Positions 4,937-56,408 of a stretch of DNA of 64,000 nt are shown here, one piece after another. Origin of the DNA: a virus. Below the pieces are notes generated by a model that did not search any database, had not been told where the DNA came from, and worked only from the letters and a program-made list of their open reading frames with translations. The position numbers were made by a program, and so were the translations under genes. The DNA lies in the IMG/VR virus record IMGVR_UViG_3300025872_000036, positions 1-64,000 of that record; one strand, written 5' to 3'. The first letter of the stretch is position 1. Each line of letters starts with the position of its first letter.

Positions 4937-5509
4937 ATGTTCATATTCAACACTCTAATGCTTCTTCTGAATGGCATTGATGTACCTCAGGGTAGAATCA
5001 AGGCTACGGACATGAAGAAACGAGTCGCGAATTTATTTGAAAATGTCAAGTTCAATATTGAAAGAACGGATTCTCTTGAAGACGAAGATTACACCATTGC
5101 TGGATTCTATCTTGAAGAATTGCAGGAGATAGAAATCGTTTTCATTATCCCAAAGAAAGCAAAGGGATATTTCAATATAGAGAATCCAAATCTATTTCGT
5201 TTTCATCTAGCACAAACTATACAACACGAATTCATTCATCATCAGCAGTTTCTCAAGAGAGATGAATTGCAAACCGAATCCTTTTCATTATGCATGAGGG
5301 GAAATAGTGAGCAAAAGTATCTTGGTGAGAGGGACGAGATTGATGCGTATTCGTATGATGTTGCGATTGAGGTAAATACATATGGTTGGGAAGATTCACA
5401 AACATTGAGAATATATCGCAAGCAATTTGATCCCAGTCATCCTGTCATGAAGAGGCTTCTAAAGAAGACATACAAGAATCTGGGAGTGCTGAATGGACGA
5501 AAGAATTGA
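4937..5509 (+). CDS. Putative zincin-like metallopeptidase (HExxH)
   Basis: A 190-aa protein with a QHEFIHH segment in which H97-E98-x-x-H101 is a classical zinc-peptidase signature. Acidic candidates for a third ligand (E131, E134) follow about 30 residues later in ERDEIDAYSY, as in gluzincin-like folds. I do not recognise the family by name, so substrate and role are unknown. It lies in the replication operon and overlaps the next gene by 17 nt. Confidence 0.7.
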   Translation: MFIFNTLMLLLNGIDVPQGRIKATDMKKRVANLFENVKFNIERTDSLEDEDYTIAGFYLEELQEIEIVFIIPKKAKGYFNIENPNLFRFHLAQTIQHEFIHHQQFLKRDELQTESFSLCMRGNSEQKYLGERDEIDAYSYDVAIEVNTYGWEDSQTLRIYRKQFDPSHPVMKRLLKKTYKNLGVLNGRKN

Positions 5510-5702
5510 AGAAATGATGCGCGAAACCATGGAGAAGGCTGAAAAGATGGTTTTAGAAGCAAGATCGCGCGACGAATTTCTTGCGGTAAATGGTTCTTTG
5601 CTTGCAGTTGCACAGCGGATGTATGTTGCATATATGGGAAGTGAAGATACGGCCAAGATGTTCTACAACATAGCTGACAAGTTGGCTGTAAGCAAAGACT
5701 AA
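5493..5702 (+). CDS. Small helical hypothetical protein
   Basis: A 69-aa, Met- and Glu-rich, probably all-helical protein overlapping the end of the HExxH gene. No recognised domain. It is the last gene of the replication cluster before a virion-type gene. Confidence 0.6.
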   Translation: MDERIEEMMRETMEKAEKMVLEARSRDEFLAVNGSLLAVAQRMYVAYMGSEDTAKMFYNIADKLAVSKD

Positions 5703-5736
5703 ATACTTGAAAGCATTAAGAAAGAGAAACTGATAA

Positions 5737-7281
5737 GTGGCTCAGTTTAGAATAGACCAACAAGATTTTGTAAGGCCTCATAACAGAACGCTGTTTGAGG
5801 TGAATATGCAAGCCGATGAGTATGGTCATCTCATGGGAGGATCTCGTTCTGGTCCAACTAAGTATAGTTCATTTGGTGAACCTGTCTCTGTTGCTATTAA
5901 TCCGGTTATTCAGTTAGACGCTCTATATGGATTTGATCCAAGAGAGTTTGAAACGCTATCTGCATCCACTGGTTTTTATGAATCAACTGGCACCTTATTT
6001 AAAACTCATACTGGCACTGGTGCGTATGGTTATGCGATAATTCGTTCTAATAGAATTCTTCGTTATCGTCCAGGTCAAGGTGCGTTGTTAAGATTTACTG
6101 CTGGATTTGATAACCCTCAAACTGGTGTTACTCTAAGAGCAGGATTCTTTACACAAGAACAATCTATTATGATTGGTTATGATGGTGATAGATTTGGTGT
6201 GTTGAGGCAGAACGGCGGTAAGGCTCACATAGCAAAATTGACTATAAGTGCTGGCGGCACAGGGACTGCAACAATTACACTAAATGGTGTCGCAACAGAT
6301 GTTGAGATTGCTTCTGCTAATACTACCGTTGTGGCAAAAACTATTGCAGCGGCATCGTTTACTGGATGGATTACAGAACAAGTTAATAATGATGTGTATT
6401 TTTTATCAACGACATTGGGTGTTAAATCTGATGAATATAGTTTGACGGGCACTGGCACCGGCACGTTTACTACAAGTCAAGCAGGTGCCGCCGATGTTAC
6501 TAATTGGACATATCAAGAAGATTTTAACATTGACAAATTAGATGGCACAGGAACTTCTGGTGTCACGCTAGACCCATCAAAATTAAACATTTATCAAATT
6601 AATTTTAGGTGGTTGGGTGCTGGCGAAATTAGATACGCAGTGGAAAATCCTCTGAATGGTGACATGATATTTTTTCATCACGAACACTATTCAAATGAAA
6701 ACACAGATGTACACACCAATAATCCATCATTTAGAATTGGTTATGTTGCCGCTAATCTGACTGGAAATACAATTACAGATGCACATACATACGGCGCATC
6801 ACTGATGGCAGCTATTGAAGGTCAAACAGTTGACAGGGCATTTCCAACAGGAATCACTAGCGATCAAAAATCTTCTTTGGGTGCAGATACTTATCACTCA
6901 ATTATTTCTGTGAAAAACTCATTAATTTATCAAAATAGAATCAATCTAAGATTATGTATATTGAAGAAGTTGACTATTTCCGTTACTACAAACGGCCCAA
7001 CAAGGCATTACCTGGTATTGAAAGGAACAAAAAGCACAGGAACTTCATGGAGTAAAATTGCTAATTACAGTTCAGTATTGCAAGATACATCAACAGGAAG
7101 TTTTACTTTTGCAAATGAACATCCAATGGCTGCATATACTCTTCCTTCTAATGGTTCCGGTAATTTTGATCTAGAAGATCTTCAAATTACAATACCTCCA
7201 GGTATGTGGATTGATTTGATGGTGGTTGGAGGTCAGGTCATCAATAGCGTTATTGCAAGTCTGACTTGGATAGAAGTTTAA
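5737..7281 (+). CDS. Probable virion structural protein
   Basis: A 514-aa, Gly/Thr/Ser/Asn-rich protein with beta-strand-like composition, no signal peptide and no enzyme motif. The start is GTG at 5737 after a purine-rich AAGAAAGAGAAA stretch. The middle (about residues 165-260) carries repetitive GTGT-type segments. Composition and its place before virion-associated genes suggest a tail, fibre or head surface protein. This is inference; no specific T4 homolog is recognised. Confidence 0.6.
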   Translation: MAQFRIDQQDFVRPHNRTLFEVNMQADEYGHLMGGSRSGPTKYSSFGEPVSVAINPVIQLDALYGFDPREFETLSASTGFYESTGTLFKTHTGTGAYGYAIIRSNRILRYRPGQGALLRFTAGFDNPQTGVTLRAGFFTQEQSIMIGYDGDRFGVLRQNGGKAHIAKLTISAGGTGTATITLNGVATDVEIASANTTVVAKTIAAASFTGWITEQVNNDVYFLSTTLGVKSDEYSLTGTGTGTFTTSQAGAADVTNWTYQEDFNIDKLDGTGTSGVTLDPSKLNIYQINFRWLGAGEIRYAVENPLNGDMIFFHHEHYSNENTDVHTNNPSFRIGYVAANLTGNTITDAHTYGASLMAAIEGQTVDRAFPTGITSDQKSSLGADTYHSIISVKNSLIYQNRINLRLCILKKLTISVTTNGPTRHYLVLKGTKSTGTSWSKIANYSSVLQDTSTGSFTFANEHPMAAYTLPSNGSGNFDLEDLQITIPPGMWIDLMVVGGQVINSVIASLTWIEV

Positions 7282-7332
7282 TTTTAGGAAAAAAATAGAT
7301 TAAGAAGAAATTTCAAGATAAGGAATAATAAC

Positions 7333-8307
7333 GTGTTAACATTCAAGAACTTTTTGAATTTATCAGAGTCTTTTTTGATTGAAGCAAATCAAGGTAGTTA
7401 TAGTGACGAACATGCACATGTAAAAGTCTGGAATCACATGGTTGAAAAAGGAATTGCTCATGATAAAGAGGCAATGAAAAGAGAGTTAGAAACTGCAAAG
7501 ACGGATAAAGCACACCCTTTACATTTTGATAATGCTGGAAAAGAAGGATTTATCGGAGGAAAAAAGACAAAAGATTCCAAAAATAGTTATCATTCCGAAT
7601 TAGAAACTGCGATGCATACAGTTCATGCTTTGGCAACACATAAAGGATTTGCTAAAGCAGTAAAAGAAAAACACAAAGCAAAAGTCATGGGTGGTGCAAA
7701 AGGTAGTGTTTCCGACACTTGGAAAAAATACGGAGCAACTAAAGGTGCAACATCTAAAACAGACATTGCAATTTATGATCCGAAAAAAGGAGAACACGAA
7801 GGTATTAGACTTTCAATGAAAAAGGGTGCAGGTTCTCAATTGATGTCTGGTGGTCCAGAAGAGAATAATGCTACACATCATCATGCTGCATTAGAAATGT
7901 TGAATAATCATCCAAAATATGCAAAGTTATCTCCAGAAAAGAAAAAAGAGATTCATAATCATATAATGGGGCATATCAAAAAAGCAGGTAAACATATTGA
8001 TGCTATGAGAACAGCGTCCAGAGAAAATATGGAAAAATTGAAAAATAGAGCGCAAAAACATTTAAATACTGTACACGATGCTTATCCCGAATTGAATCAC
8101 TATGTTAGAAAAGAAGCAACGACGGGTGAAGGTAAATTTGGTAAAGGAGCTGCACATACAGCATCGTTTCTAGTCAAATCTGTATCAGGTAGTAAAGGTG
8201 CTAAAGTAGTTCATGTAGATGAACATGATTATGAAGGATCTCGTCCGAGAGCTGCTTTACCAAAAGGTACTGGGCGTTCGGGTAATTTTAAATTGGATGA
8301 AAGATAA
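7333..8307 (+). CDS. Putative PD-(D/E)xK-like nuclease with capsid-targeting-type N-terminus
   Basis: A 324-aa Lys/His-rich protein starting with GTG. The N-terminus reads MLTFKNFL and runs to a FLIEA site, matching the (L/I)xE rule for T4 prohead protease cleavage. Around residues 138-175 it has TDIAI followed by RLSMKKG and GSQLMSGG, an arrangement like the catalytic core of restriction-endonuclease-fold proteins. The nuclease call is tentative. A head-packaged role is inferred from the N-terminus, which it shares with seven other proteins in the window. Confidence 0.55.
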   Translation: MLTFKNFLNLSESFLIEANQGSYSDEHAHVKVWNHMVEKGIAHDKEAMKRELETAKTDKAHPLHFDNAGKEGFIGGKKTKDSKNSYHSELETAMHTVHALATHKGFAKAVKEKHKAKVMGGAKGSVSDTWKKYGATKGATSKTDIAIYDPKKGEHEGIRLSMKKGAGSQLMSGGPEENNATHHHAALEMLNNHPKYAKLSPEKKKEIHNHIMGHIKKAGKHIDAMRTASRENMEKLKNRAQKHLNTVHDAYPELNHYVRKEATTGEGKFGKGAAHTASFLVKSVSGSKGAKVVHVDEHDYEGSRPRAALPKGTGRSGNFKLDER

Positions 8308-8426
8308 TACTTGGAAAAATATATGGCAAATCGCCATCAAAAGGCGATAGTGCAGGAAGAATAGTTATAACTGACGGAATACCAAAAACCGCACTAATAG
8401 TAAGTATGTCATAATCGGAGAAACAA

Positions 8427-9629
8427 ATGCTAGACTTCAAATCATATTTGATAGAATCAGACGGACAAGGCATAGCCTCAGCAAAACATCAGGAACATCC
8501 CGAAGATGATGCTATGAGAAGTCATGAGCATTTCAAACATGCAGTCTCCGCTCTAAGAGCAGTTCATCATGCACTAAAGACAGGTAACTCTGGCGATACA
8601 CACATATCAACAAAACAAGATGGTGCACCAGCAATAGTCTATGGACATCATCCAAAAACTGGTAAATTCTTCGTAGCAACAAAGCATTCGGCATATGGTT
8701 CAACACCTAGACTTGCGACGACACATGCTGAAGTAGATCAGCACTTTGGTCATTCGCCGGGTCTAGCACAAAAGATGCACGCCGCTTTGGAACATCTACC
8801 GAAGATTGCTCCAAGAAAAGGAGTATTCCAGGGCGACTTCATGCATGATTCAAGTGAGATGAAGCATGATGATCATGAAGTTTCATTCAAGCCAAATACT
8901 ATTAGATATCATCTTGGTAGAAATACACCTGAAGGCAAAAAGGCAGTCAAAGCAAAGATAGGATTTTCTACACATACAAAGATTGATGGAGATCCTGATA
9001 GACCAGAAACATTGCAAGCATCTCCGCTAAGAAGTACGACGGGATTCAGAAGTCATTCAGATGTACATCATATCTCTGCACAAACAAGTCTTGGTTCTGG
9101 CGGACATGTTACGGAAAAAGAAAGCAAGCAAGTAGAACATCACTTGAAACAAGCAGAGAAGATCAACAAGAATCTTCATCCCAATCATCATGATATTGTC
9201 AATAAACATGCTGAACATATTTCTACATACATCAATCAAACTGTAAGAACAGGTGAAAGACCAACAACTCAAGGTCTACGCAAGCATATTCAAACTCGTA
9301 TGCAAAAAGAAGTAGACAAGATGAAGACCGAAAAGGGCAAAGCTGCAAAAACAGAAAGAATGAATGCTGCACTTGCACATCATGATACACATGAAGAACA
9401 TTTTGGTAAAGCACTAGAAATTCATCATCATGTTCAACAAGCAAAGAATATTCTTGTCTCAGGATTGAATAGAGCAACAAAGAATGCAAGTCCAATGAGA
9501 CAAACGATTGACAATAAAGAGACAGATCCTGAAGGACATGTTGTTCATCATGAAGGTAAGACGATGAAAATGGTCAATCGTCAAGAATTTTCTAGAGCAA
9601 ACTTTGCGCCAAAAGATTGGAAGAAGTAA
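8427..9629 (+). CDS. Ligase/nucleotidyltransferase-like protein with capsid-targeting-type N-terminus
   Basis: A 400-aa, very His-rich protein. It begins MLDFKSYLIES, with LIE as a possible prohead protease site. STKQDGAPAIVYG (around residue 67) fits motif I (KxDG) of the covalent nucleotidyltransferase superfamily. VFQGDFMHD, the later FKPNTIRY, and the C-terminal GHVVHHEG plus KMVNR resemble the further motifs that line a ligase active site. I infer an RNA/DNA ligase-like enzyme, but the family is usually left as uncharacterised. The ribosome-binding site CGGAGA precedes the ATG. Confidence 0.55.
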   Translation: MLDFKSYLIESDGQGIASAKHQEHPEDDAMRSHEHFKHAVSALRAVHHALKTGNSGDTHISTKQDGAPAIVYGHHPKTGKFFVATKHSAYGSTPRLATTHAEVDQHFGHSPGLAQKMHAALEHLPKIAPRKGVFQGDFMHDSSEMKHDDHEVSFKPNTIRYHLGRNTPEGKKAVKAKIGFSTHTKIDGDPDRPETLQASPLRSTTGFRSHSDVHHISAQTSLGSGGHVTEKESKQVEHHLKQAEKINKNLHPNHHDIVNKHAEHISTYINQTVRTGERPTTQGLRKHIQTRMQKEVDKMKTEKGKAAKTERMNAALAHHDTHEEHFGKALEIHHHVQQAKNILVSGLNRATKNASPMRQTIDNKETDPEGHVVHHEGKTMKMVNRQEFSRANFAPKDWKK

Positions 9630-9646
9630 ACTGGGATAATTATATT

Positions 9647-10240
9647 ATGAAAATTGAATTGACTAATGATACATCTCTTGTTATTGATGATTTTTTAAAT
9701 GAAAATGACTACGCAAAAATAGTTCAATTATCGTCCAACTATTCTTTTAGATCAAATCATAAGTCAAGTCCTACGGTTGATCCGCATGGTCATTGGGTGT
9801 ACAATTTATTGATTGATGGCCTACAAAATAATTCTACAAGTATCATTAATGTTTCTGATTATTTCAAAGATAACTTTTATAAAAATGTTTGGAATTATAT
9901 ACAAGAAACATATCATCTTCAAGACAAGATTTTAATTAGATGCTATATGAATGCTTATACATACGGTACCGAAGGATATGTTCATACTGATTCATCTCGG
10001 AGTAATGAATGGACAGCCATATTATATGTTTTAAATGATGATTGGGATATAAATTGGGCAGGAGAAACGGTGTTGTTTTCAAATAATGAAATCACAAGAT
10101 CCATTTTACCTAAAAAAAATAGAGCATTTATTTTTCCGTCTAGGATAGCACATGCAGCAAGATCCGTTTCTAGAATATGTTATCAAACACGAAAAACGTT
10201 AATGTTTAAATTTAGAAGCAAATACAAAGAAGAAATGTAA
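9647..10240 (+). CDS. 2OG-Fe(II) oxygenase, prolyl-4-hydroxylase-like
   Basis: A 197-aa protein with the iron-binding HxD in VHTDSSRSNEW, a distal His in RIAHAARSVS and a following Arg in QTRKTLMFKF that would bind 2-oxoglutarate. This is the order expected for P4H-type dioxygenases, which are common in marine T4-like phages. An upstream in-frame ATG at 9617 lies inside the previous gene; the ATG at 9647 is more likely. The substrate is unknown. Confidence 0.85.
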   Translation: MKIELTNDTSLVIDDFLNENDYAKIVQLSSNYSFRSNHKSSPTVDPHGHWVYNLLIDGLQNNSTSIINVSDYFKDNFYKNVWNYIQETYHLQDKILIRCYMNAYTYGTEGYVHTDSSRSNEWTAILYVLNDDWDINWAGETVLFSNNEITRSILPKKNRAFIFPSRIAHAARSVSRICYQTRKTLMFKFRSKYKEEM

Positions 10241-10245
10241 AATAG

Positions 10246-10253
10246 CATAAATA
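10246..10253 (+). promoter_or_regulatory. T4-late-type promoter, CATAAATA
   Basis: CATAAATA followed by C, one change from the T4 late consensus TATAAATA, 32 nt before the membrane protein gene at 10285. Confidence 0.55.
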
Positions 10254-10284
10254 CTCTCGTCACCGCTAATTATGGGAGTATACC

Positions 10285-10569
10285 ATGGAAGCAGAATTCT
10301 TCAAGCTGGTGGCGGAAGTTGGATTTCCAATTGCATCTTCAATAGCAGGCGGATACTTTGTTTTTCTTACGCTAAAGTTTATTCTAGCCGGCGTTCAAAG
10401 TTCAGTAAAAGGATTGAGTGGGATTATCATGGCACTTGACAATCGCGTCAAGACTATGAATCACGATATCGTTAGAATTGATACTTTGGTTTCAACAGCA
10501 CTACATGTCAGACCTGATATCGACAGACTCGCAAGAGCTGACGGTAAAAACGACGCAAGAAAGGACTGA
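10285..10569 (+). CDS. Small membrane protein, paralog A (holin/UviB-like layout)
   Basis: A 94-aa protein with one N-terminal transmembrane segment (about residues 13-37) followed by an amphipathic helix. It shares GFPI, GY and the IxALxxRV...D(I/L)xR pattern with the protein at 11078, so the two are paralogs now separated by a homing endonuclease. The layout resembles small BhlA/UviB-type holins, but a separate 3-TM holin lies at 28064, so the function is open. Confidence 0.65.
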   Translation: MEAEFFKLVAEVGFPIASSIAGGYFVFLTLKFILAGVQSSVKGLSGIIMALDNRVKTMNHDIVRIDTLVSTALHVRPDIDRLARADGKNDARKD

Positions 10570-10574
10570 CAAAT

Positions 10575-11081
10575 ATGAAACACGAACATCATATTATACC
10601 TAAACATATGGGTGGAAATGACGACCCTTCTAATTTAGTTTATCTAACTATTGAAGAACATGCTGAAGCACATAAAATATTATGGGAAAAACATGGGAAA
10701 TTAGAAGATAAAGTTGCTTACATGGGATTATTAAAAATGATTGATCGTGAGCAAATTATACATTGTTTAGTTTCCGCCCCTAAAAGCGAAGAACACAAAA
10801 GAAAAATATCTGAGGCACTTAAAGGTAAATCTAAACCTTGGTTAATTGGTTCTAAGAATGCTGCTGGCAAACGAGGACCCAATACTAAAGAACATAATCA
10901 ACGTATTGCAGAAGCAAAAAAAGGTAAAAAACGTGCGCCTTTTAGTGATGAATGGAAACAAGCACTAAAAAACGCAAAACAAAAACAACCAATACTTCAA
11001 TGCCCACACTGTCAGTTACAAGGTCGTGGCGCTAATATGACCAGATATCATTTTGATAATTGCAAAGGAATCAAATCATGA
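10575..11081 (+). CDS. HNH homing endonuclease with NUMOD3 and zinc-finger tail
   Basis: A 168-aa mobile endonuclease. It starts with an HNH-type HEHHIIPKHMGG and NLVYLT, continues with two NUMOD3-like DNA-binding segments (EEHKRKISEALKGK and EHNQRIAEAKKGK), and ends in CPHC...HFDNC, a likely zinc finger. It sits exactly between two paralogous membrane protein genes; its stop overlaps the next start (ATGA) and its 3' end supplies the next gene's ribosome-binding site. This is typical of a free-standing homing gene inserted into an operon. Confidence 0.85.
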   Translation: MKHEHHIIPKHMGGNDDPSNLVYLTIEEHAEAHKILWEKHGKLEDKVAYMGLLKMIDREQIIHCLVSAPKSEEHKRKISEALKGKSKPWLIGSKNAAGKRGPNTKEHNQRIAEAKKGKKRAPFSDEWKQALKNAKQKQPILQCPHCQLQGRGANMTRYHFDNCKGIKS

Positions 11082-11344
11082 CTGATCAAATTATTGCCAT
11101 GATTAATAAATATGGATTTCCTATCGTTGCTGCTGGCGGTATGGGATATATGATATATTTTGTTTGGAAATGGGCTACAGCAGAAATCAAACCTGTGTTA
11201 TCTGAAGCAAACACAGTCCTGATTGCATTGATCGACCGCGTTAGAATGTTGGACAATGATTTGATTAGACTCAATCAAAAAATCAACATCGTTCTAATGA
11301 TGAGGGAAACACATGCAAGCAAAGACAAGAAGGATACTGAATAA
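11078..11344 (+). CDS. Small membrane protein, paralog B
   Basis: An 88-aa paralog of the protein at 10285: a short N-terminus, a transmembrane helix around residues 13-33, then a helical tail with ALIDRVRMLDNDLIR. The ATG at 11078 overlaps the endonuclease stop and follows AAAGGAA; an upstream TTG-type extension is unlikely. It overlaps the autotransporter gene by 32 nt. Confidence 0.65.
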   Translation: MTDQIIAMINKYGFPIVAAGGMGYMIYFVWKWATAEIKPVLSEANTVLIALIDRVRMLDNDLIRLNQKINIVLMMRETHASKDKKDTE

Positions 11345-13214
11345 CCTTCTACTTTTTGTCACATTATTAATAACACCTATAGCATTATCTCAAGTTCTAC
11401 CCAGCGGTTATATTGGAACCGTAACGAATAATACGCCAAATACTTGGCAGACGTATTCGTACTCGTTCATTCCAAATATATCAGGCACAAACTATGTCGG
11501 ATTTGCGTTTAGGCAAGATCCTGCATATTGGACTTTCGACAATGCAAGTTTGACAGAATCGGGTTCATCCTCAAATCTTCTAACAAACGGAGGATTCACT
11601 ACGGGTGGTGCAATCAACATAACAACCAGCAACGGACCAGGAACGATTCAAGCACCTACTAATTGGGGTGTCTGGTATCAGAATGGTACATATCCTGCTG
11701 CGGCAGGCACATGGCAAGACATCGGAGGAACACATGGAGGTGTCTGGTTTGATGGTGCAGTAGGTACGTTTGACGGTATCTATCAAGGTATCAGTCTTAT
11801 TGCTGGAACAACATATACATTGACGTTTGAAATATTTGGCAATCACACAAGCAATGATAGTTCAGTACAACTTGGTGTTTACGCAGGTCCATGCGCAGAC
11901 ACATCTATCGCTGTCTCCTCATGTACAATACCAAGCAGTGCTGGATTCACAACTCTTGCGACACCTGCAGAAGGTGCAGCAGCTGGTAATCCAACGCCAA
12001 CAGTAGTAAGTACTACGGCAGGACCAGACATCGTAGATTCTTCTTCCAATAGAGGAGCCACGACATCAACCACTACAAGCACAAGAGGCACAACAAGCGC
12101 AGTTGCAACAACAACACTAACACCAACAAGACAAGAACAAATACTATCAGTAAACAGAAATATCACTACAGTTGCAACAACACCAATCACAACAGTTGTC
12201 AGATACACAACACCAATTACTACTACAACAATCACAACTCCAACTACAATTCAAACATGGAGTGATGGCACAACAACCACAGTAAATGGAACACCAGTAA
12301 CAACAACATCAATTATCAATGAAATTGTCACAGCAACAACAACGACCGATGAAGTAATTACAACAGCAGATAATCGTGCATTCACGACTCGTATTGATCA
12401 ACTTGCAAAACTTGACAAGATCAGCACTCTACAAAATGAAAACTCATTGGCTGATCCTCTATCAAGAAACAAGGCTGCAAATGACAAGATTACAAATAGA
12501 AGTGATCCTACAAAACAGTCTCAAGTATATGTAACTGGTTATTCTCTTCGCTCTGGTACCAAGGACACATACAAATATACGACAAATGTCTTTGGTATTG
12601 GATATGAAGAGAAGTATAATGACTCTCTATTGTTGGGTGGTCAATTGAACATTGGCACAACCGATCTTAGAGGCGACGATTCTGGTGGCGAACTAAGAAA
12701 GTATTCAATAGACTTCTTCGCGCTAAAGTCTTATGAAGATTGGCTATTGAAGACAAATCTAGGCACAGCATACAATGAGTTTGAAACACATCATTTCATG
12801 CGTGGTTTGAATTTGTCAAATACAGCAGAAACATCTGGTCATGATGCTTGGTTTGTCAACAGAGTCTATACGCCAGATGCATATGGTTTTAGACCATTTG
12901 CTGGTATTAAATTTGAATACGACTATAGAAAGAACATCTTTGAAAGCGGCTCACCAGTAACTGCAGTCAATCATGCTGCCAGAAAAGACTTCACGACTTC
13001 TGGGCATGGTGGTCTACGATTTGAACAAGAACTTGTGGACGATCTAACCGCAGTTGTTGAAGGTGTATTGGAAACATCAAAGACCAAGACAATCTTTGGT
13101 GGATTCAATTACTCATTTGATCCTAGTGCATCAATAATGCTAAAGTATGCAGTACAAGAGAAAGAAAATGTGGTAAATAACATTATTGGTGCTCAAATAA
13201 GGATTGTATTCTAA
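11313..13214 (+). CDS. Autotransporter-like outer-membrane protein
   Basis: A 633-aa protein with a clear signal peptide (RRILNNLLLFVTLLITPIALS, cut before QVLP). A beta-sandwich, carbohydrate-binding-like passenger covers about residues 28-190. A Thr/Ser-rich stalk follows (about 215-345). The C-terminal region (about 385-633) has the alternating pattern of a beta-barrel and ends in AQIRIVF, with the terminal Phe expected of a Bam-recognised outer-membrane barrel. The architecture is that of a type V secreted surface protein. The ribosome-binding site GAGGGA precedes the ATG. A phage gene of this kind is unusual; target and function are unknown. Confidence 0.75.
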   Translation: MQAKTRRILNNLLLFVTLLITPIALSQVLPSGYIGTVTNNTPNTWQTYSYSFIPNISGTNYVGFAFRQDPAYWTFDNASLTESGSSSNLLTNGGFTTGGAINITTSNGPGTIQAPTNWGVWYQNGTYPAAAGTWQDIGGTHGGVWFDGAVGTFDGIYQGISLIAGTTYTLTFEIFGNHTSNDSSVQLGVYAGPCADTSIAVSSCTIPSSAGFTTLATPAEGAAAGNPTPTVVSTTAGPDIVDSSSNRGATTSTTTSTRGTTSAVATTTLTPTRQEQILSVNRNITTVATTPITTVVRYTTPITTTTITTPTTIQTWSDGTTTTVNGTPVTTTSIINEIVTATTTTDEVITTADNRAFTTRIDQLAKLDKISTLQNENSLADPLSRNKAANDKITNRSDPTKQSQVYVTGYSLRSGTKDTYKYTTNVFGIGYEEKYNDSLLLGGQLNIGTTDLRGDDSGGELRKYSIDFFALKSYEDWLLKTNLGTAYNEFETHHFMRGLNLSNTAETSGHDAWFVNRVYTPDAYGFRPFAGIKFEYDYRKNIFESGSPVTAVNHAARKDFTTSGHGGLRFEQELVDDLTAVVEGVLETSKTKTIFGGFNYSFDPSASIMLKYAVQEKENVVNNIIGAQIRIVF

Positions 13215-13537
13215 TGAAAAACATTATAATATGTGCAATGGCTCTGGCGCTTTTCGGCGCCAGAGCATATGCTCAGGAAGAATTGACATGGCGTCAAAAG
13301 CCAGTATTGTGTGGTGAAACAAAGACAGTATTGGAACAATTGAAAAATGAAAATTATACGATTATAGGGAAATCAACAATTGTTCTCGACAAGACTGAAA
13401 GAACTATGGGATATGTTTGGCTGCTTCTAAAAGATGATGAACTACTAATCATTGAAAATTTCAGAGGTGTTAGTTGCTTGATCAGCGTTTCAAAAGACTA
13501 CATCGAAATAAATCTAAAGAAAGAAAATGACCTATAA
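13214..13537 (+). CDS. Small secreted (periplasmic) protein
   Basis: A 107-aa protein with a signal peptide (MKNIIICAMALALFGARAYA, cut before QEE). It has two Cys residues in the mature part that could form a disulfide. Its start overlaps the autotransporter stop (TAATG), so the two are probably co-translated and may act together at the envelope. No domain recognised. Confidence 0.7.
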   Translation: MKNIIICAMALALFGARAYAQEELTWRQKPVLCGETKTVLEQLKNENYTIIGKSTIVLDKTERTMGYVWLLLKDDELLIIENFRGVSCLISVSKDYIEINLKKENDL

Positions 13538-13640
13538 GACATCCGACATGGCTGTCGCACTATGGGGTGGAATATTCATAGGATTCATATTTGGAATAAT
13601 TGTTGGCGTTGCCTTTCAATTATTCAAATGTTCATTTTGA
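13527..13640 (+). CDS. 37-aa single-pass membrane peptide
   Basis: Starts at ATG 13527, overlapping the previous stop by 11 nt. The product has one hydrophobic segment with a glycine-zipper pattern (GGIFIGFIFGIIVGVAF). It converges with, and overlaps by 9 nt, the end of the minus-strand cyclase gene. Operon position and membrane pattern support coding; the function is unknown. Confidence 0.5.
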   Translation: MTYKTSDMAVALWGGIFIGFIFGIIVGVAFQLFKCSF

Positions 13641-15683
13641 AGTAGCCCTATAGACACCATCCCAATCTGCTGGTGGTGGATTTCTTAGATACTCTTCACA
13701 TCTTTCCTTCATCATTTCATAGTATGCTTTCATCTGACCATTGAATGCTCTGTCTAATTTCTCGCACATGCTTATTGCACTTCCGAATTTTTGTGAGCGA
13801 TAGTCATCAAGCATGATATTATGCATTTCTCTAAATGGTGCATAATTCAAGAATTCCATTTCTCTATTTGTTCCTATCACGGTATAGATATTTACACCTT
13901 GCTTCTTACCCTTGACTGCAATTGTATCAAGTTCAATGATGAAGTATTCATCGGCAACATATTCTGCTGTCTTTGATCCGATTACGAGTTTTACTCCGTA
14001 CGGTTTGGATTGTCCCTCAAGACGACTAGCAAGGTTGACAGCATCACCGAGGCAAGTATAATCGAAACGTTGATCGCTGCCCATGTTTCCAACAACAACC
14101 ATACCAGTATTGATACCAAGACCCATGCCGAAAGGAGGAACACCTTCAGCTCCGATTTTTCTGTTGAACTCATCTAGATCTCCTAACATGCTTAGAGCGG
14201 TTTTTACTGCATTCTTGGCGTGCTGCTTGTCGTCAAGTGGTGCATTCCAGAACGCCATCTGTGCATCACCAATATACTTGTCCAATGTGCCTTCATTCTC
14301 AAGGATCTTTGCTGTCATCGCAGTCATGTAGCGATTCATGATTTGTGTCAGACCCTGAACGTTTTCTCCATAGTGTTCACTAATAGAAGTAAATCCACGA
14401 ACATCGGTAAACATGATTGATAGTTCTCTGGTATCGCCACCGAGTTTCAATAGTTCTGGATTCTTCTGCAGTTTCTCAACAAGTGCCTTTGAAAGATAAG
14501 ATTGAAACTGTTTCTTGATTTGTTGCTTTAGTCTGAACTCTCTTGCAAAGTTGTTGAAGACTAGCCATGAGAATACTAAAGTAATTGCAAATAAAGGAAA
14601 TGAATAATCAAACATAATATTCATTTCGTACATATAGAAGCAGGAACCGACGATTCCTACTGCCGAAACCACATAAAAAGGTATGGTTTGCCAAATCTTT
14701 AGTCTTGGAACAAGAAGAATGAATAGTAATCCAATGAGAGTCAATGTGAATAATTCAATACCATCAGCATAATCCAATCGCGTCAAACTATCGCCATTTA
14801 CCAACGTAGAAATCATGGCTGCCTGCACTTCAGCTACGTTCTTTAGACCATAAGGCGTTGGAACGTTTGTGGCTAGTCCCTCGGCAGATAGAGTCAATAT
14901 TACGACACGGTTCTCTATGTCGTTTAGATGATACATATGACGATAATCGAATTCCTTGTTGTACTTTATCCAGACGCGACCATTTGAGTCCGTTTGGATA
15001 GTTTCAAATTGTGGAATGCGAACTGACTCAATGCCATTCAATCCAACTTTCATTTGGTAACTAGGATCACCAGTCAATGCACGAATGACTTCCAGAGACA
15101 ACGTTGGATAAAGTTCCTTGTCTATTTGCACGACCATTGGCATACGACGTACGACGCCATCTATCTCTCCAGATGCAGCAAGAACACCGACACCAGCTGC
15201 CTTATCTTCAAACACTTTCAATGGGCGAACGATACCTAAAAATCTTTGTATCCACCCTTCGGGGTTTTGACCAATTATTGCGATTCCTCTTGGTGAACCT
15301 TCTGCTTTGCTGGCCTTGTTTGATGGTGCCTGTGATATGACAACACCATCGAGCGCATTTGCAAGATCTTGATCTTTTCCAAAACGATCTGGCTCCGAAA
15401 ATATTATTGGCATGACTATCATCGCAGGATTCATCGTCTTTATCATTTCAAGTAGTTTTGCAACTTTATCACGAGGCCATGGCCACTGACCTTGATTTTC
15501 AATATCGTCGTCAGTTATTTCAATAATTGAGATTTGTTCGCTGGATGTTCTTTCTCTTGATACTTGATAGTAGTCAAATGTTTTTAGTCGTGCTGTCTCA
15601 ATCAACCAACCATCTTGGAATCTCAACGCAATCAAACCTATCAAAACAACAACAACAATTTTCCAAGATGTAAAGAAGTTCAT
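13632..15683 (-). CDS. CHASE2-domain class III adenylate cyclase
   Basis: A 683-aa membrane receptor cyclase. It has an N-terminal membrane anchor (about 8-21), an extracytoplasmic CHASE2 sensor (about 25-300) and three transmembrane helices (about 308-380). The catalytic domain (about 415-600) has metal Asp427 (FTDVRGF) and Asp473 (IGDA), Lys469 and Thr543 at the purine-selecting positions (the Lys/Thr pair of class IIIb adenylate cyclases), and transition-state Asn550 and Arg554. All catalytic residues are present, so it should make cAMP. It overlaps the FecR gene (ATGA) and closes the curli-type operon. Confidence 0.92.
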   Translation of the reverse strand: MNFFTSWKIVVVVLIGLIALRFQDGWLIETARLKTFDYYQVSRERTSSEQISIIEITDDDIENQGQWPWPRDKVAKLLEMIKTMNPAMIVMPIIFSEPDRFGKDQDLANALDGVVISQAPSNKASKAEGSPRGIAIIGQNPEGWIQRFLGIVRPLKVFEDKAAGVGVLAASGEIDGVVRRMPMVVQIDKELYPTLSLEVIRALTGDPSYQMKVGLNGIESVRIPQFETIQTDSNGRVWIKYNKEFDYRHMYHLNDIENRVVILTLSAEGLATNVPTPYGLKNVAEVQAAMISTLVNGDSLTRLDYADGIELFTLTLIGLLFILLVPRLKIWQTIPFYVVSAVGIVGSCFYMYEMNIMFDYSFPLFAITLVFSWLVFNNFAREFRLKQQIKKQFQSYLSKALVEKLQKNPELLKLGGDTRELSIMFTDVRGFTSISEHYGENVQGLTQIMNRYMTAMTAKILENEGTLDKYIGDAQMAFWNAPLDDKQHAKNAVKTALSMLGDLDEFNRKIGAEGVPPFGMGLGINTGMVVVGNMGSDQRFDYTCLGDAVNLASRLEGQSKPYGVKLVIGSKTAEYVADEYFIIELDTIAVKGKKQGVNIYTVIGTNREMEFLNYAPFREMHNIMLDDYRSQKFGSAISMCEKLDRAFNGQMKAYYEMMKERCEEYLRNPPPADWDGVYRATSK

Positions 15684-16711
15684 TTTTGTATTATCCTTAT
15701 CTTATTGACATACGGAGACTCGGCATCGTTTATGCTAAACGTCACCGTTCTATCGCCTTGAGTTATTGACATGTCGTAGTTTTTGTCTTTTTCTATGTCC
15801 ATTTGGACAGCACTTTCAACATTACGAAGTAGCCTGACTTTTGTGGCAGTGAATATAGTATATATTTGAGTAGATTGATTGAGTCCTGCAATCTTTCCGA
15901 CCGAAGACGCATCATATTCGCTCAACACATTTTGCAATAAATCCATATCAAGAAGATTGACATCAAGATCGTTGAACTTGAGATTGTCTTTGTCTAGATC
16001 TGTCGTATCAAGTTCTCTGAATTCCAGAAGATCTATTCTCAATGGATCATTTTTGTCGTGAGTGTCTTCGTCCTTTGACTTCTCTGGCTTTGACACAATC
16101 AAAAGATTATTGATTTGACTCTCAAGTAGATTCAATATCGTTGGCTGTGCTGGTTTTCCCTCACTTGACGCGACATATGTGGATTGAAATGCCTTGTTCA
16201 ATATCACTTGTCCAGCATCGGATTCAACTCGTATCTCACCGACTGTGCCATCGCGATTGGGTAATAGAATTATAAGACTTTGACCTATTTCGTCAACCGT
16301 CATGCTAAATGATGTGCCGCGAACACCAACTGTTGCAACTGGTGTTTGGATGTTTATGTTTTCATTATTGTTCTTTGCGATTGCACCAGATGCATACCTG
16401 ACCGTGCCAAGTGCAATCTTCATGGACATCTTGCCAGCACCACGATTGGGATCATAGACATATTCGTCTATGACAAGTTTGCTATTCTCGGTGATGGCTA
16501 CTTGTGTTTCATCCTTGAATTTTATATTTGCTCTTGCGCGAGCTGTGCGAATCGTGTCCAATGATTCAACTTTACCACCTAAAGAAGCATCAACTGACGA
16601 GCCAGCTTTTTTGTCTATTTGTGCTGGACCCGTCAGTTGAATAAATTCACCAATAGAATTGGCTTTAGCCTCAGTCAGACTGAGTAATAGTAGCAGTAAG
16701 ATTATTACCAT
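15680..16711 (-). CDS. FecR-domain periplasmic protein
   Basis: A 343-aa protein with an N-terminal signal peptide (MVIILLLLLLSLTEAKA) and a FecR domain whose hallmark TPVATVGVRGTSF is at residues 123-135. The C-terminal half is acidic and of unknown fold. It overlaps the curlin-like gene upstream by 41 nt and the cyclase downstream by 4 nt. FecR-domain and CHASE2-cyclase genes are often neighbours in proteobacteria, so a sensing partnership across the membrane is plausible. Confidence 0.85.
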   Translation of the reverse strand: MVIILLLLLLSLTEAKANSIGEFIQLTGPAQIDKKAGSSVDASLGGKVESLDTIRTARARANIKFKDETQVAITENSKLVIDEYVYDPNRGAGKMSMKIALGTVRYASGAIAKNNNENINIQTPVATVGVRGTSFSMTVDEIGQSLIILLPNRDGTVGEIRVESDAGQVILNKAFQSTYVASSEGKPAQPTILNLLESQINNLLIVSKPEKSKDEDTHDKNDPLRIDLLEFRELDTTDLDKDNLKFNDLDVNLLDMDLLQNVLSEYDASSVGKIAGLNQSTQIYTIFTATKVRLLRNVESAVQMDIEKDKNYDMSITQGDRTVTFSINDAESPYVNKIRIIQK

Positions 16712-17339
16712 TTGTCGTCACATTCATGACCTTTTGTATGCTACCAGATTGAGAATATGTAAAGGTTCCGCTATTACCTGTGTGCGTGATCGTTGCTGTA
16801 TGAGGTAATGTAGGAGCACCCGATTGACTAAAGTTTGTTACATTCAGATCGCCCGTAATATTCATTGTTAGCGATCCCGCCGTTGAATTCATTAGTATTG
16901 TAGTTTGATTATTGTCGCCAGTAACAGTTGCATCAAGTATCACGCTACTCTTCTTGATCGTGATATCTGTTGTATTGTTATCTCCGATGTTGTAGAATTT
17001 CGCATCTACTGATGCACACGCATCAGTATTTCCAGCATTACACTTGAACTCCATCGTGTTCGTGCTGCCCTCTTGTTTTAGATCAACAAGATTTCCGTTA
17101 CCATTCAATTCAAAATTCAATGTGTTTATCGCGCCGTTTTGCATTATGGTTATATCGTTATTGTCGCCTGTAATCAAAGCAGGCGTCGTTGACGAATTGA
17201 TTTGATTCAATGCACCATTTTGTTGGGTGATTGTCAATGTCAATGCGTCTCCTGTTTGATCAATATAGATTTTACTATCCGTCGCGTTTGCTACATTGAA
17301 TAACAAAACCATGAACAATGCTGCCCATAGTTTTCTCAT
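16671..17339 (-). CDS. Curlin-like secreted repeat protein (CsgA/CsgB type)
   Basis: A 222-aa protein with a signal peptide (MRKLWAALFMVLLFNVANA, cut before TDS). Its mature part is rich in Asn, Gln, Gly and Thr and has repeated GDNN and QxGxxN units (for example MQNGAIN, KQEGSTN, YSQSGSI), as in curlin amyloid repeats. The ATG at 17339 overlaps the csgG stop (ATGA) and follows a strong AAGGAAGG site, so the longer upstream reading is rejected. Probably exported through the CsgG pore encoded just upstream. Confidence 0.8.
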   Translation of the reverse strand: MRKLWAALFMVLLFNVANATDSKIYIDQTGDALTLTITQQNGALNQINSSTTPALITGDNNDITIMQNGAINTLNFELNGNGNLVDLKQEGSTNTMEFKCNAGNTDACASVDAKFYNIGDNNTTDITIKKSSVILDATVTGDNNQTTILMNSTAGSLTMNITGDLNVTNFSQSGAPTLPHTATITHTGNSGTFTYSQSGSIQKVMNVTTNGNNLTATITQSD

Positions 17340-18112
17340 TTGTTTCCTTCCTTTCTTTTCCAAAATCCTTTTCTTTCGCCTTCCATGATTGTTTCTATTA
17401 CACTCTGCTCTATCGCAGCCTTGACAGCGTAGTTTGTTGGTTCATTTACTGCAAGACCTGTTTCTATTTCAAGTGCCTTTGTTCCCATGTCAACGAACTT
17501 CAACACATCAACTGATGTCTTGATGCTCAATATTGTTTTTTGTACTGCAACGGATGTTAGAACTTCGCCCGTTTGAACCGACACAAGACGAAGAAATACC
17601 GTGACAATATCCTGTCTATATTGTGTTGATACACCAATACCAAGGTATCTTGCACCAACACCACCCGATGATATGTTTGTATCATAACTTATGACGCCAC
17701 CCTCGGCAATCAATCCAGCAAATAGTAGTGGGCGTAATTCTTTTGCTCTTTCTCCTTCAAATGCTTCGCGAGCAGTACGAATCAATTGTCTTTCCTTGAT
17801 TAGATTATCAAGACCTACACGTTCAACAACACGAAACCATTTACCTTTTCCGACATCTTGCATGGCTTTGATCAACCATGCTTCTGCGCCTTGTGTTATT
17901 GCTGTGCTTAGATGTGCAACATTTTCACTTGGTTTTCTTTGTCCGGTCTTGTCAAGATACGAGTAGACGGCCACGATCAATGGCTGTCCATCAATTTCTT
18001 CTATCATTTCAAACATGCTTTGAGCCTTTGATGGCATCAATTCTGGCTCAGTCACTTCCATGGGTGCAACGCATCCAGCAAGCAACAAGAGCATTAGTAA
18101 TGCTTTGTACAT
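17336..18112 (-). CDS. csgG: CsgG-like outer-membrane secretion lipoprotein
   Basis: A 258-aa protein with a lipobox (LLAGC, Cys14). The conserved CsgG core is present, including GKWFRVVERVGLDNLIKERQ, SSGGVGARYLG and the TVFLRLVSVQTGEVL strand region that builds the membrane channel. Length agrees with CsgG (about 260-280). The start overlaps the CsgF stop (TAATG). Curli-type csgF/csgG pairs have been reported in some marine pelagiphage-like myoviruses; here they are coupled to a putative substrate and to a FecR/cyclase pair. Confidence 0.93.
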   Translation of the reverse strand: MYKALLMLLLLAGCVAPMEVTEPELMPSKAQSMFEMIEEIDGQPLIVAVYSYLDKTGQRKPSENVAHLSTAITQGAEAWLIKAMQDVGKGKWFRVVERVGLDNLIKERQLIRTAREAFEGERAKELRPLLFAGLIAEGGVISYDTNISSGGVGARYLGIGVSTQYRQDIVTVFLRLVSVQTGEVLTSVAVQKTILSIKTSVDVLKFVDMGTKALEIETGLAVNEPTNYAVKAAIEQSVIETIMEGERKGFWKRKEGNK

Positions 18113-18555
18113 TAGAACTTGAACTCGCCTATTGGAACTTCAACGGTTGTTGTATTTCCATTTGATTGGACTATTGATAATGTAACAGCATCTGTAGTCT
18201 TCACGAAGGATATTGTGTTTCCTTCAATGACGACGGTGCCAGAATTGCTTGCATTCTCACCAAACATTGTATCTACAAGTTGCTTGCTCAATTGAGCATA
18301 TATTCTACCTTCAACATTCAATAGAAACTTGGATAGATTTGAATTGTCTATCTTTCTTTGTTCAGCAGCTTTTCTTGCTTCTTCTTCGGCTTTTAGTTTC
18401 TCTCTACGCTGGTATTCCATTGTTTCAATGGTTAGAACGTGTGAAGAATATCCAATGCCGCTAAACGAAGGATTCTTGAAGCCAAATTGTAGATTATCGG
18501 CTAAAACATGATCAGATATCAGCAAAAACATGACTAAGAAAGGTAATTTTCTCAT
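18112..18555 (-). CDS. csgF: CsgF-like curli assembly factor
   Basis: A 147-aa protein with a signal peptide (MRKLPFLVMFLLISDHVLA, cut before DNL). The mature N-terminus QFGFKNPSFSGIGYSSH is the CsgF signature that docks into the CsgG pore. The ATG at 18555 follows AGAAAGGA; the longer upstream reading lacks support. First gene of the minus-strand operon. Confidence 0.9.
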   Translation of the reverse strand: MRKLPFLVMFLLISDHVLADNLQFGFKNPSFSGIGYSSHVLTIETMEYQRREKLKAEEEARKAAEQRKIDNSNLSKFLLNVEGRIYAQLSKQLVDTMFGENASNSGTVVIEGNTISFVKTTDAVTLSIVQSNGNTTTVEVPIGEFKF

Positions 18556-18587
18556 GATATTGAGTCCTTTCTTACAAGTATTATTTA

Positions 18588-18595
18588 GATAAATA
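18588..18595 (+). promoter_or_regulatory. T4-late-type promoter, GATAAATA
   Basis: GATAAATA, one change from TATAAATA, 28 nt before the ATG at 18623 in the divergent region between csgF and the polydomain gene. The surrounding AT-rich sequence could also serve the minus-strand operon. Confidence 0.45.
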
Positions 18596-52182: not shown

Positions 52183-52259
52183 GGTCCGTTCGTCTAGTGG
52201 CTTAAGACATCCGCCTGTCACGCGGAAGATCACGGATTCGAATTCCGTACGGATCGCCA
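52183..52259 (+). tRNA. tRNA-Asp (GTC)
   Basis: 77 nt with CCA; loop CTGTCAC; discriminator G73 as usual for Asp. Confidence 0.93.
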
Positions 52260-52263
52260 TTAT

Positions 52264-52338
52264 GGGGGTGTGGCTCAATCGCGGAGCGTTCGCCTGATTA
52301 GCGAAAGGTTGTAGGTTCAAGTCCTACCACCCCTACCA
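52264..52338 (+). tRNA. tRNA-Ile (GAT)
   Basis: 75 nt with CCA; loop CTGATTA; G1-U72 in the acceptor. Confidence 0.92.
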
Positions 52339-52386
52339 ATTGGTGTATAGTAGCATGTAGTTTGTGTAAGTCGTTCGTCCAGAATT

Positions 52387-52469
52387 GGACCGGTCACCGT
52401 AGTGGCGAGCGGCGCAGACTTTTAATCTGCTATTATACATCGTGGGTTCGAGTCCCACCCGGTCCTCCA
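52387..52469 (+). tRNA. tRNA-Lys (TTT)
   Basis: 83 nt with CCA; loop CTTTTAA. The variable region is about 11 nt, longer than usual for Lys. Confidence 0.88.
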
Positions 52470-52474
52470 TTTAT

Positions 52475-52549
52475 AGCCTCGTAGTATAACGGAGAGAACA
52501 TCTGACTACGAATCAGAAGATGAGGGTTCGATTCCTTCCGAGGCTGCCA
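52475..52549 (+). tRNA. tRNA-Arg (ACG)
   Basis: 75 nt with CCA; loop CTACGAA; would need A34-to-inosine editing by the host TadA to read CGC/CGA. Confidence 0.92.
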
Positions 52550-52553
52550 GTTA

Positions 52554-52629
52554 CGGAGAGTTTGATAGCGGCTAATCGACATGCTTTGGGAGCATGGTTT
52601 CGTGGGTTCGAGTCCCACCTCTCCGACCA
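52554..52629 (+). tRNA. tRNA-Pro (TGG)
   Basis: 76 nt with CCA; loop TTTGGGA; C1-G72 start as usual for Pro. Confidence 0.93.
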
Positions 52630-52633
52630 TTTT

Positions 52634-52709
52634 GGATCGTTAGTGAAGCTGGTGCACACGTTCCGCTGAAGACGGAAAGAACTCTGTTCGATTCAGAGAC
52701 GATCCACCA
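52634..52709 (+). tRNA. tRNA-Phe (GAA)
   Basis: 76 nt with CCA; loop CTGAAGA. Confidence 0.93.
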
Positions 52710-52723
52710 TTATGGAGATATAC

Positions 52724-52960
52724 ATGATTGAATTGGAAAATCTTAGTGACATTCAAAAGTCACTATGTGATATTCTTTGGGAACTTGATGGTCCCGATGA
52801 ACTTCAGGCATTTCTCAATGGTCTTCCAGAACGTCTGCGTAGAGATGCTGAATCCATGATTCAGATGATGCTCTTAAATAGTATTGACAAGACGGAAGAT
52901 ACCAAGTATGCTGATGAAATCTTGAGTAAGATACTGAACAAAGACAAGACTACTGATTGA
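52724..52960 (+). CDS. Small acidic hypothetical protein
   Basis: A 78-aa acidic helical protein. ATG 52724 follows GGAG by 6 nt; an in-frame ATG at 52712 is less likely. It is probably transcribed with the tRNAs, since it starts 15 nt after tRNA-Phe, and precedes an HNH gene. Function unknown. Confidence 0.65.
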   Translation: MIELENLSDIQKSLCDILWELDGPDELQAFLNGLPERLRRDAESMIQMMLLNSIDKTEDTKYADEILSKILNKDKTTD

Positions 52961-52977
52961 ATTGAAAGGAGGTAACA

Positions 52978-53535
52978 ATGTCTATCGGACTCAGAACGCT
53001 CGTACTAAATGCGGACTATCATCCAATATCATTGTTTCCTCTGCACACAATTCCAGTAGAGGATGCGGTGACGCGCCTGTTCAATGGCACCTGTCAGCTT
53101 GTATATGAGCATGATCGCAAGATCTTGACGCCAAGTCTGAACATGAAGTGGCCATCGGTCATTGCTCGTATTGACACCAAGCGTGTCAAGGAGCGTGTAA
53201 AGTTGGGCGCTGAAGGTTTGTATTACCGTGATCACGGTCTGTGTGCATACTGCGAAACTCCTTTGACGCTAAAGTGCATCACATTCGATCACGTTGTTCC
53301 AAAGAGCAAGGGTGGAACCTATTCTTGGGACAATCTTGTTTCGGCTTGCAGTACCTGCAATCTGCTCAAGGGCGATTCTCCGCCTGTGGGTAAGTGGGCA
53401 CCAAAGCGTAAGCCATACAAGCCTTCATACTATGACCTGCTTGCTGTAAGAAAGAAGTTTCCGATTCAGATCGATGACGAGAATTGGATTCAGTTCATTG
53501 GTAAGTGGGATGCGCCTGTGGTGGTCAAGAACTAG
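52978..53535 (+). CDS. HNH endonuclease
   Basis: A 185-aa protein with a Zn-HNH core: CAYC, then TFDHVVPKSKGGTYSWDNLV, then CSTCNLLKGD. A strong AAAGGAGG site precedes the ATG. No NUMOD domains and a codon use like its neighbours, so it may be a resident nuclease (host DNA breakdown or packaging-type) rather than a homing enzyme. Confidence 0.88.
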   Translation: MSIGLRTLVLNADYHPISLFPLHTIPVEDAVTRLFNGTCQLVYEHDRKILTPSLNMKWPSVIARIDTKRVKERVKLGAEGLYYRDHGLCAYCETPLTLKCITFDHVVPKSKGGTYSWDNLVSACSTCNLLKGDSPPVGKWAPKRKPYKPSYYDLLAVRKKFPIQIDDENWIQFIGKWDAPVVVKN

Positions 53536-53544
53536 AAATAGTTC

Positions 53545-53573
53545 TTGACTCACCCAACAAGATATAGTATATT
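53545..53573 (+). promoter_or_regulatory. Sigma70-type promoter of the second tRNA block
   Basis: TTGACT, 17-nt spacer, TATATT; predicted start about 3 nt before tRNA-Tyr. Confidence 0.75.
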
Positions 53574-53582
53574 ATGGATTAT

Positions 53583-53675
53583 GGGAGCGTTGGTACTATG
53601 GTGTGTGTGCCTCCTGACTGTAAATCAGGTCCCTTGTGGTAAACGATGCTGGTTCGACTCCGGCCGCTCCCACCA
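53583..53675 (+). tRNA. tRNA-Tyr (GTA)
   Basis: 93 nt with long variable arm and CCA; loop CTGTAAA. Confidence 0.92.
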
Positions 53676-53679
53676 AATT

Positions 53680-53753
53680 GCGTGGTTGGTATATTGATTG
53701 TGCCTCGGCCTTCCAAGCCGATGAAACGAGTTTGATTCTCGTACCACGCTCCA
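53680..53753 (+). tRNA. tRNA-Gly (TCC)
   Basis: 74 nt with CCA; loop CTTCCAA; U73 as usual for Gly. Confidence 0.93.
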
Positions 53754-53758
53754 GTTTT

Positions 53759-53833
53759 GCGGATGTAGCACAGTGGTAGTGCATCACGTTGCCAACGTGA
53801 ATGTCGTGGGTTCGACCCCCATCATCCGCTCCA
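53759..53833 (+). tRNA. tRNA-Gly (GCC)
   Basis: 75 nt with CCA; loop TTGCCAA; U73. Confidence 0.93.
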
Positions 53834-53918
53834 GTTTTTGAGCCTACGCCTAGCGGCGATAGGTCTATCGAGGTTTTCTTGGCTGTACCAGCATAGCAAA
53901 ACAACCAAGACGAGTTTT

Positions 53919-53995
53919 GCCCTTGTATCCCAATTGGCAGAGGAGGCTGATTCAAAACCAGCATGTTGTCGGTTCGACTCCGACCGAGGGCACCA
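53919..53995 (+). tRNA. tRNA-Leu (CAA) with short variable loop
   Basis: 77 nt with CCA; loop TTCAAAA; A73. The variable loop is only ATGTT, whereas bacterial Leu tRNAs normally have a long arm. Confidence 0.85.
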
Positions 53996-53999
53996 AAAC

Positions 54000-54124
54000 A
54001 CCGAATGCGACGACCAGTATCGCATTCGGTCAGCACCGAAGTACGTTAGAATTTGAGCGTTTGAAGTGACGTAATGGCGATGAGAGGTCATATGACTCAT
54101 TGTAACCATCTCCCGCTTCGGTGC
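54000..54124 (+). ncRNA. Two-hairpin structured RNA between Leu tRNAs
   Basis: An 11-bp perfect hairpin (54000-54010 with 54020-54030) followed by a 9-bp stem (54033-54041 with 54116-54124) enclosing 74 nt. No ORF. Ends 10 nt before tRNA-Leu(TAG). Confidence 0.5.
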
Positions 54125-54134
54125 GAATCTATAT

Positions 54135-54211
54135 GCTCCTGTAGCCCAACTGGCAGAGGCATTGGTCTTAGGAACCAAGTGTTGTGAGTTCGACTCTCAC
54201 CGGGAGCACCA
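54135..54211 (+). tRNA. tRNA-Leu (TAG) with short variable loop
   Basis: 77 nt with CCA; loop CTTAGGA; A73; variable loop GTGTT only. Confidence 0.87.
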
Positions 54212-54224
54212 TTTTGTTTGTTAT

Positions 54225-54300
54225 GAGCGTGTGACCCGAATGGCTAGGGACCTGACTGCAACTCAGGTATATGTAGGTTCAACTCCTATCACGCTCTCCA
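54225..54300 (+). tRNA. tRNA-Cys (GCA)
   Basis: 76 nt with CCA; loop CTGCAAC; U73 as usual for Cys. Its last 12 nt overlap the antisense sulfotransferase gene. Confidence 0.93.
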
Positions 54301-55679: not shown

Positions 55680-55723
55680 CATATACTCCGCATAATAAGA
55701 CAAACTATATATTCATGTTTGCA

Positions 55724-55799: not shown

Positions 55800-55800
55800 C

Positions 55801-55875: not shown

Positions 55876-55882
55876 TTTCCTC

Positions 55883-56399: not shown

Positions 56400-56408
56400 T
56401 CGAAAGTA

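Follow-up and report, generated by a model that had tools for sequence, protein, structure and literature searches.

What does a T4-like phage do with an operon that joins curli-type export genes to a FecR-domain protein and a receptor adenylate cyclase? The locus lies in positions 1 to 64,000 (hereafter "the window," 64,000 nucleotides) of IMG/VR record IMGVR_UViG_3300025872_000036, a T4-like phage of 196,948 bp in total. Its replication genes are of the T4 type, it has 34 tRNA genes, and its DNA polymerase shares ~54% identity with those of cyanomyophages; a cyanophage-host reading was rejected on the weak evidence that psbA was not found in the record. The tRNA genes are packed in 12 kb (window positions 47902 to 60024) and cover most amino acids, and a single permuted tmRNA lies outside the window, at 97147 to 97559 of the whole record. 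The G+C content of the curli module is that of the window, 0.40.

Parts of the five-gene module

The module consists of five minus-strand genes (Table 1). A sequence-only reading of the locus had claimed that these genes overlap, that two of them bear the signatures of CsgG and CsgF, that the third product is curlin-like, and that the cyclase keeps all its catalytic residues; all of these claims held up. The overlaps amount to 1 nt between csgF and csgG (TAATG), 4 nt between csgG and the curlin-like gene (ATGA), 41 nt between the latter and fecR, and 4 nt between fecR and the cyclase gene (ATGA). Both Csg proteins are recovered by their Pfam families, and the CsgG of the window, which is 53% identical to the copies in phages HTVC008M and Melnitz, matches solved CsgG at 1.7e-61 in a profile comparison. 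The sequence carries the hallmarks of type VIII secretion, namely, a CsgG lipoprotein pore, CsgF, and a secreted curlin-repeat substrate.

Table 1. Module genes, neighboring genes, and promoter-like motifs, by position in the window
Feature	Positions	Strand	Description	Match or remark
Late-promoter-like motif upstream of small gene a	10246..10253	+	CATAAATA	Motif conserved among relatives
Small membrane protein a	10285..10569	+	94 aa	phrog_18771 1.4e-32
Small membrane protein b	11078..11344	+	88 aa, paralogue of a	phrog_18771 1.5e-33
Exported protein	11313..13214	+	633 aa, C-terminal end like outer-membrane barrel (...IGAQIRIVF)	No Pfam family
Exported protein, clade-specific	13214..13537	+	107 aa	Found in closest relatives only
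CHASE2 receptor adenylate cyclase	13632..15683	-	683 aa, class III	Pfam CHASE2 4.1e-41; Guanylate_cyc 1.1e-19
FecR-domain periplasmic protein	15680..16711	-	343 aa, signal peptide	Pfam FecR 3.6e-12; phrog_37870 1.7e-77
Curlin-like exported substrate (predicted)	16671..17339	-	222 aa, signal peptide, GDNN...Q.G-type repeats	Pfam Curlin_rpt 19.6 bits
csgG homologue	17336..18112	-	258 aa, lipoprotein pore, LLAGC lipobox	Pfam CsgG 4.3e-50
csgF homologue	18112..18555	-	147 aa, signal peptide, ATG at 18555	Pfam CsgF 6.7e-17; phrog_35372 3.5e-43
Late-promoter-like motif upstream of csgF	18582..18588	-	CTAAATA	Motif conserved among relatives

The curlin-like protein itself scores slightly under the Pfam curlin repeat cut-off of 20.7 bits, and a profile built from 30 of its relatives settled the assignment, matching curlin-repeat protein 8c50 (4.7e-10) and CsgA fibril 8enq (0.0037) among solved structures. 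Its AlphaFold model is nearly all beta (mean pLDDT 87.7, pTM 0.82). A fold search with this model among solved structures gave no confident match, and the curlin identity therefore rests on the sequence profile. The second curlin of HTVC008M (L002, positions 10638 to 11963) bears a PA14 domain at its N terminus besides its curlin repeats, which suggests a sugar-binding fiber subunit.

The closest solved relatives of the window cyclase are adenylate cyclases, and the class III catalytic set is complete: the metal Asp pair (D427/D473), the substrate Lys and Thr (K469/T543), and the transition-state residues N550 and R554. Among 83 phage copies, down to ~39% identity, the essential D, D, N, and R are retained in 82. 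The sole exception is the Melnitz cyclase (L003, positions 11571 to 13622), which reads GDSVSTAAR where most others have GDxVNLASR; both its catalytic Asn and its substrate Thr are changed, so that its activity is doubtful and cAMP output may not be essential. In HTVC008M, the cyclase has no C-terminal tail. Phages commonly carry genes derived from their hosts, and the altered catalytic site of Melnitz could be taken as a sign that the whole cassette is passive cargo, currently functionless. Yet the conservation of catalytic residues in all other copies, together with that of gene order and promoter motifs (see below), makes this reading very improbable.

The operon layout, the gene identities, and the intact cyclase are supported, and to see in the gene set a secreted curlin-like substrate, its pore, and a cAMP-making receptor is a fair reading. 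No cAMP-binding domain was found across the 197-kb phage record, which rules out a phage-encoded cAMP receptor; the receptor must therefore belong to the host.

Conservation of the module and its small membrane-protein partners

The sequence-only reading had further regarded the linkage of a curlin-like substrate to a cAMP-producing receptor as undescribed, which was mistaken. Wittmers et al. 2022 (PMC9599517) report the order csgF-csgG-csgA/B-fecR-(second curlin)-adenylate cyclase from pelagiphage podo- and myoviruses and across ocean metagenomes, the csgGF part having been described by Zaragoza-Solas et al. 2020 (PMC7029224) and Buchholz et al. 2022 (PMC9004378), and the module is present as csgF-csgG-curlin-fecR-curlin-cyclase in HTVC008M (a Pelagibacter phage) and Melnitz (a Methylophilales phage). 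The gene set is thus already published from marine phages; what we add is a small membrane-protein pair, a late-promoter pattern, and an apparent two-unit origin.

That the module might be unique to this phage was likewise rejected, given these isolates and more than 500 cyclase relatives in IMG/VR. The cyclase query yielded at least 598 relatives, of which the best 80, together with the known phages and the window, formed our synteny sample; close relatives are included, so that counts are not independent events. Every one of the 51 loci that extend 4.5 kb or more upstream had the complete ordered module, and the linkage, far beyond chance, is not confined to one contig. A second curlin gene is present in 25 of these loci and absent in 26, the window being of the type without.

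The five genes stood as claimed, but the extent given to the module was too narrow, in that a tandem pair of small membrane-protein genes on the plus strand belongs with it and had been missed. The pair, whose family is phrog_18771, was present in 50 of the 53 loci that extend 3 kb or more to each side of the module. Conversely, of the best-matching 80 loci fetched by the small protein, again with close relatives among them, 69 had genes of the module; in the remaining 11, the sequence stops ~1.1 kb or less downstream of the small genes. Some loci place csgF between the two small genes. Of 50,697 phage records, six encode the small protein, and these HTVC008M and Melnitz records are the ones with a phage curli module; a seventh CsgG match is a 1.5-kb Salmonella record. 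The pair is therefore a near-inseparable partner of the phage curli module. In the window, a free-standing HNH/NUMOD3 homing-endonuclease open reading frame (10575 to 11081) splits the two genes. Locus L004, with a 98% identical cyclase, has no such frame and its small genes are 2 nt apart, and the insertion therefore looks recent.

According to Wittmers et al. (PMC9599517), csgF is invariably preceded by one histidine kinase or, in some cases, by two. Judging by position, these kinases are presumably the small pair. The small proteins, however, are ~90 aa long without a kinase domain, protein a being modeled by AlphaFold as a single long helix, and HATPase_c had no match in three whole records (this one, HTVC008M, and Melnitz), whereas 14 of 14 control genomes matched. 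We rejected a histidine-kinase partner on these grounds; the pair was apparently mistaken for kinases in earlier work, and correcting this would remove the supposed kinase from models of the module.

The small proteins could be called holin-like only in the sense of a slight similarity. Of 28 members each, 27 for protein b (best, 4e-5) and 12 for protein a weakly matched the holin family phrog_4898, and YvrJ was matched in 7 of 28 small-protein members. This similarity underlies the main rival to a secretion function, in which the CsgG pore and the holin-resembling pair would bring about lysis or set its timing and the FecR-CHASE2 cyclase would act as sensor; it extends the pinholin proposal of Buchholz et al. 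2022. Such a role would agree with matches that are weak but consistent, with the tight association of pair and module, with the late-type motifs described below, and with the fact that no holin is named in the Melnitz paper (PMC9004378). In the window protein, however, the phrog_4898 match is confined to ~20 residues at the N terminus, Pfam YvrJ does not reach its cut-off, and a direct search for the YvrJ holin family in the phage's own record was empty. Moreover, a hole needs neither a curlin substrate nor CsgF, and CsgG is located in the outer membrane, not the inner. We consider lysis control unlikely.

Late-promoter-like motifs and the proposed function

TAAATA forms the core of the late promoter of T4, TATAAATA, and motifs of this kind stand ahead of csgF and small gene a. 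We counted TAAATA at most 60 nt upstream of the start among distinct sequences and took the expectation from shuffles. It preceded csgF in 85 of 106 cases (~13 expected) and small gene a in 96 of 133 (~12 expected), mostly 10 to 37 nt ahead of the start. It was absent upstream of csgG (0/119) and nearly so upstream of fecR (2/96) and small gene b (1/119); the cyclase gene had it in 21 of 99 cases (~7 expected) and the curlin genes in 35 of 206 (~22 expected). Counts of CTAAATA or TATAAATA across the whole window were not above chance, nor were the results of sigma-70 promoter and terminator scans. The signal thus resides in the position of the motif upstream of csgF and gene a, as tested across relatives, and nowhere else. 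Combined with the abutting or overlapping genes, these positions support two putative late transcription units, one led by csgF and the other by small gene a. Cotranscription of the five genes is supported indirectly, by the overlaps and by the conserved late motif that csgF has and that csgG and fecR lack. For phage curli modules, the pattern suggests a time of action that can be tested.

Sequence alone shows which parts are present and that their order is conserved, and it shows the catalytic residues, the promoter-like motifs of late type, and the linkage of the small pair. On balance, we lean toward the view that the parts form a curli-type (type VIII) secretion device, expressed late and equipped with an envelope sensor that signals through cAMP. 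CsgG and CsgF would form a pore in the outer membrane through which the curlin-like protein is exported onto the surface of the infected cell, while the FecR-domain protein in the periplasm and the inner-membrane CHASE2 cyclase would sense the condition of the envelope or of the secretion process. The cyclase would then make cAMP, to be read by a host cAMP receptor, and the tandem small inner-membrane proteins encoded nearby would act as a near-constant partner. Most simply, the phage might benefit from an altered cell surface, through aggregation or exclusion of competitors. Export, fiber formation, cAMP output, the thing sensed, the reader of cAMP, and the benefit to the phage are all steps that we infer. 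Buchholz et al. (PMC9004378) saw no clumping of Melnitz-infected cells and predicted an altered phage CsgF, both of which count against this view. The lack of any reported CsgE gate, the loss of the catalytic Asn in Melnitz, the want of a phage cAMP receptor, and the fold search of the curlin model weigh against it as well.

No CsgE gate is reported in phage curli modules (PMC9599517), a point that would also fit a proposal made in PMC7029224 and PMC9599517: an ungated CsgG pore might admit nutrients, or CsgG and the fiber might block other phages, with FecR and the cyclase as regulators. FecR is classically linked to outer-membrane receptors. Late-type motifs, however, suit the feeding of replication poorly, and the FecR-domain protein here is exported and cyclase-linked, unlike the iron-citrate regulator. 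We regard uptake or exclusion of this kind as decidedly unlikely.

Starting again from the secretion device, it is tempting to speculate that all seven proteins cooperate in one late phage apparatus, in which the small inner-membrane pair, an outer-membrane amyloid exporter, and the cAMP-making envelope sensor would, for example, link surface-fiber assembly to the timing of release. We put this forward as a tentative possibility, rather unlikely as it stands; as far as was searched, no comparable phage system has been demonstrated. The ocean is rich in phage curli modules, which account for ~0.1% of assembled viral proteins (PMC9599517).

Bacterial counterparts and known phage modules

The best 80 cellular matches of the cyclase are almost all alphaproteobacterial, at 33 to 39% identity over nearly the full length. 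In this sample, which includes close relatives and whose counts are therefore not independent events, a FecR-domain gene is close to the CHASE2 cyclase in 37 of 80 loci, and csgG is within 9 kb of it in none. The marine alphaproteobacterial cyclase clusters examined also hold cNMP-binding proteins. In small-genome marine alphaproteobacteria (L314, positions 5093 to 14019; L293, L299, and L310), several of these flank the CHASE2 cyclase, and a cNMP-binding domain is fused to an HlyD-type secretion subunit, an arrangement that suggests cAMP-gated type I secretion.

Curli genes, in turn, are rare in this class, with csgG in 7 of 385 alphaproteobacterial genomes at the threshold used. Five alphaproteobacterial curli loci with csgF, csgG, and curlin-type genes gave no match to profiles of the phage FecR or cyclase within ~9 kb, and FecR and adenylate cyclase are described as absent from bacterial curli operons (PMC9599517). 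Since FecR-cyclase pairs and curli operons lie apart in the sampled alphaproteobacteria, the phage module looks like a bacterial curli unit and a bacterial FecR-cyclase unit joined; the curli side was sampled in five loci, and rare operons that combine the two may exist. Such a mosaic shows how the module could have arisen.

In Sinorhizobium meliloti, CHASE2 cyclases make cAMP on signals received by the outer-membrane barrel NsrA, which acts with CyaK and CyaD1/D2 (PMC7529298, PMC13001267), a precedent for signalling from the outer membrane to a cyclase of this type. A FecR-domain gene adjoins cyaD1 there and is not needed for signal perception (PMC5498481). The 633-aa barrel-type protein of the window, which accompanies the module in this clade only, could be an NsrA-like receptor. 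Another 12 loci have strong homologues close to the module; the gene is either convergent with the cyclase gene or upstream of csgF, the latter in L021, L024, L025, and L035.

Bacterial curli operons, both csgBAC/csgDEFG of Escherichia coli and csgF-csgG-curlin of alphaproteobacteria, share adjacent csgF and csgG and curlin repeats with the phage, whereas the five alphaproteobacterial loci differ from its module by having neither a FecR or cyclase match nor the small-protein pair. The bacterial FecR-CHASE2 clusters examined, such as that around cyaD1 of S. meliloti, have a cyclase like that of the phage and carry type I secretion genes instead of csgG. The type VIII secretion module of pelagiphages (PMC9599517, PMC7029224) is a further close counterpart, with the same order of csgF, csgG, curlin-repeat gene, fecR, and adenylate cyclase, and with an optional second curlin gene that the window lacks. 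In the window, moreover, the small-protein pair lies downstream on the opposite strand rather than upstream, and a gene for an outer-membrane-type protein is gained. Melnitz and HTVC008M (MZ577097 and KC465899; PMC9004378) share genes and order with the window at 29 to 53% protein identity, both with the second curlin gene that distinguishes them from it.
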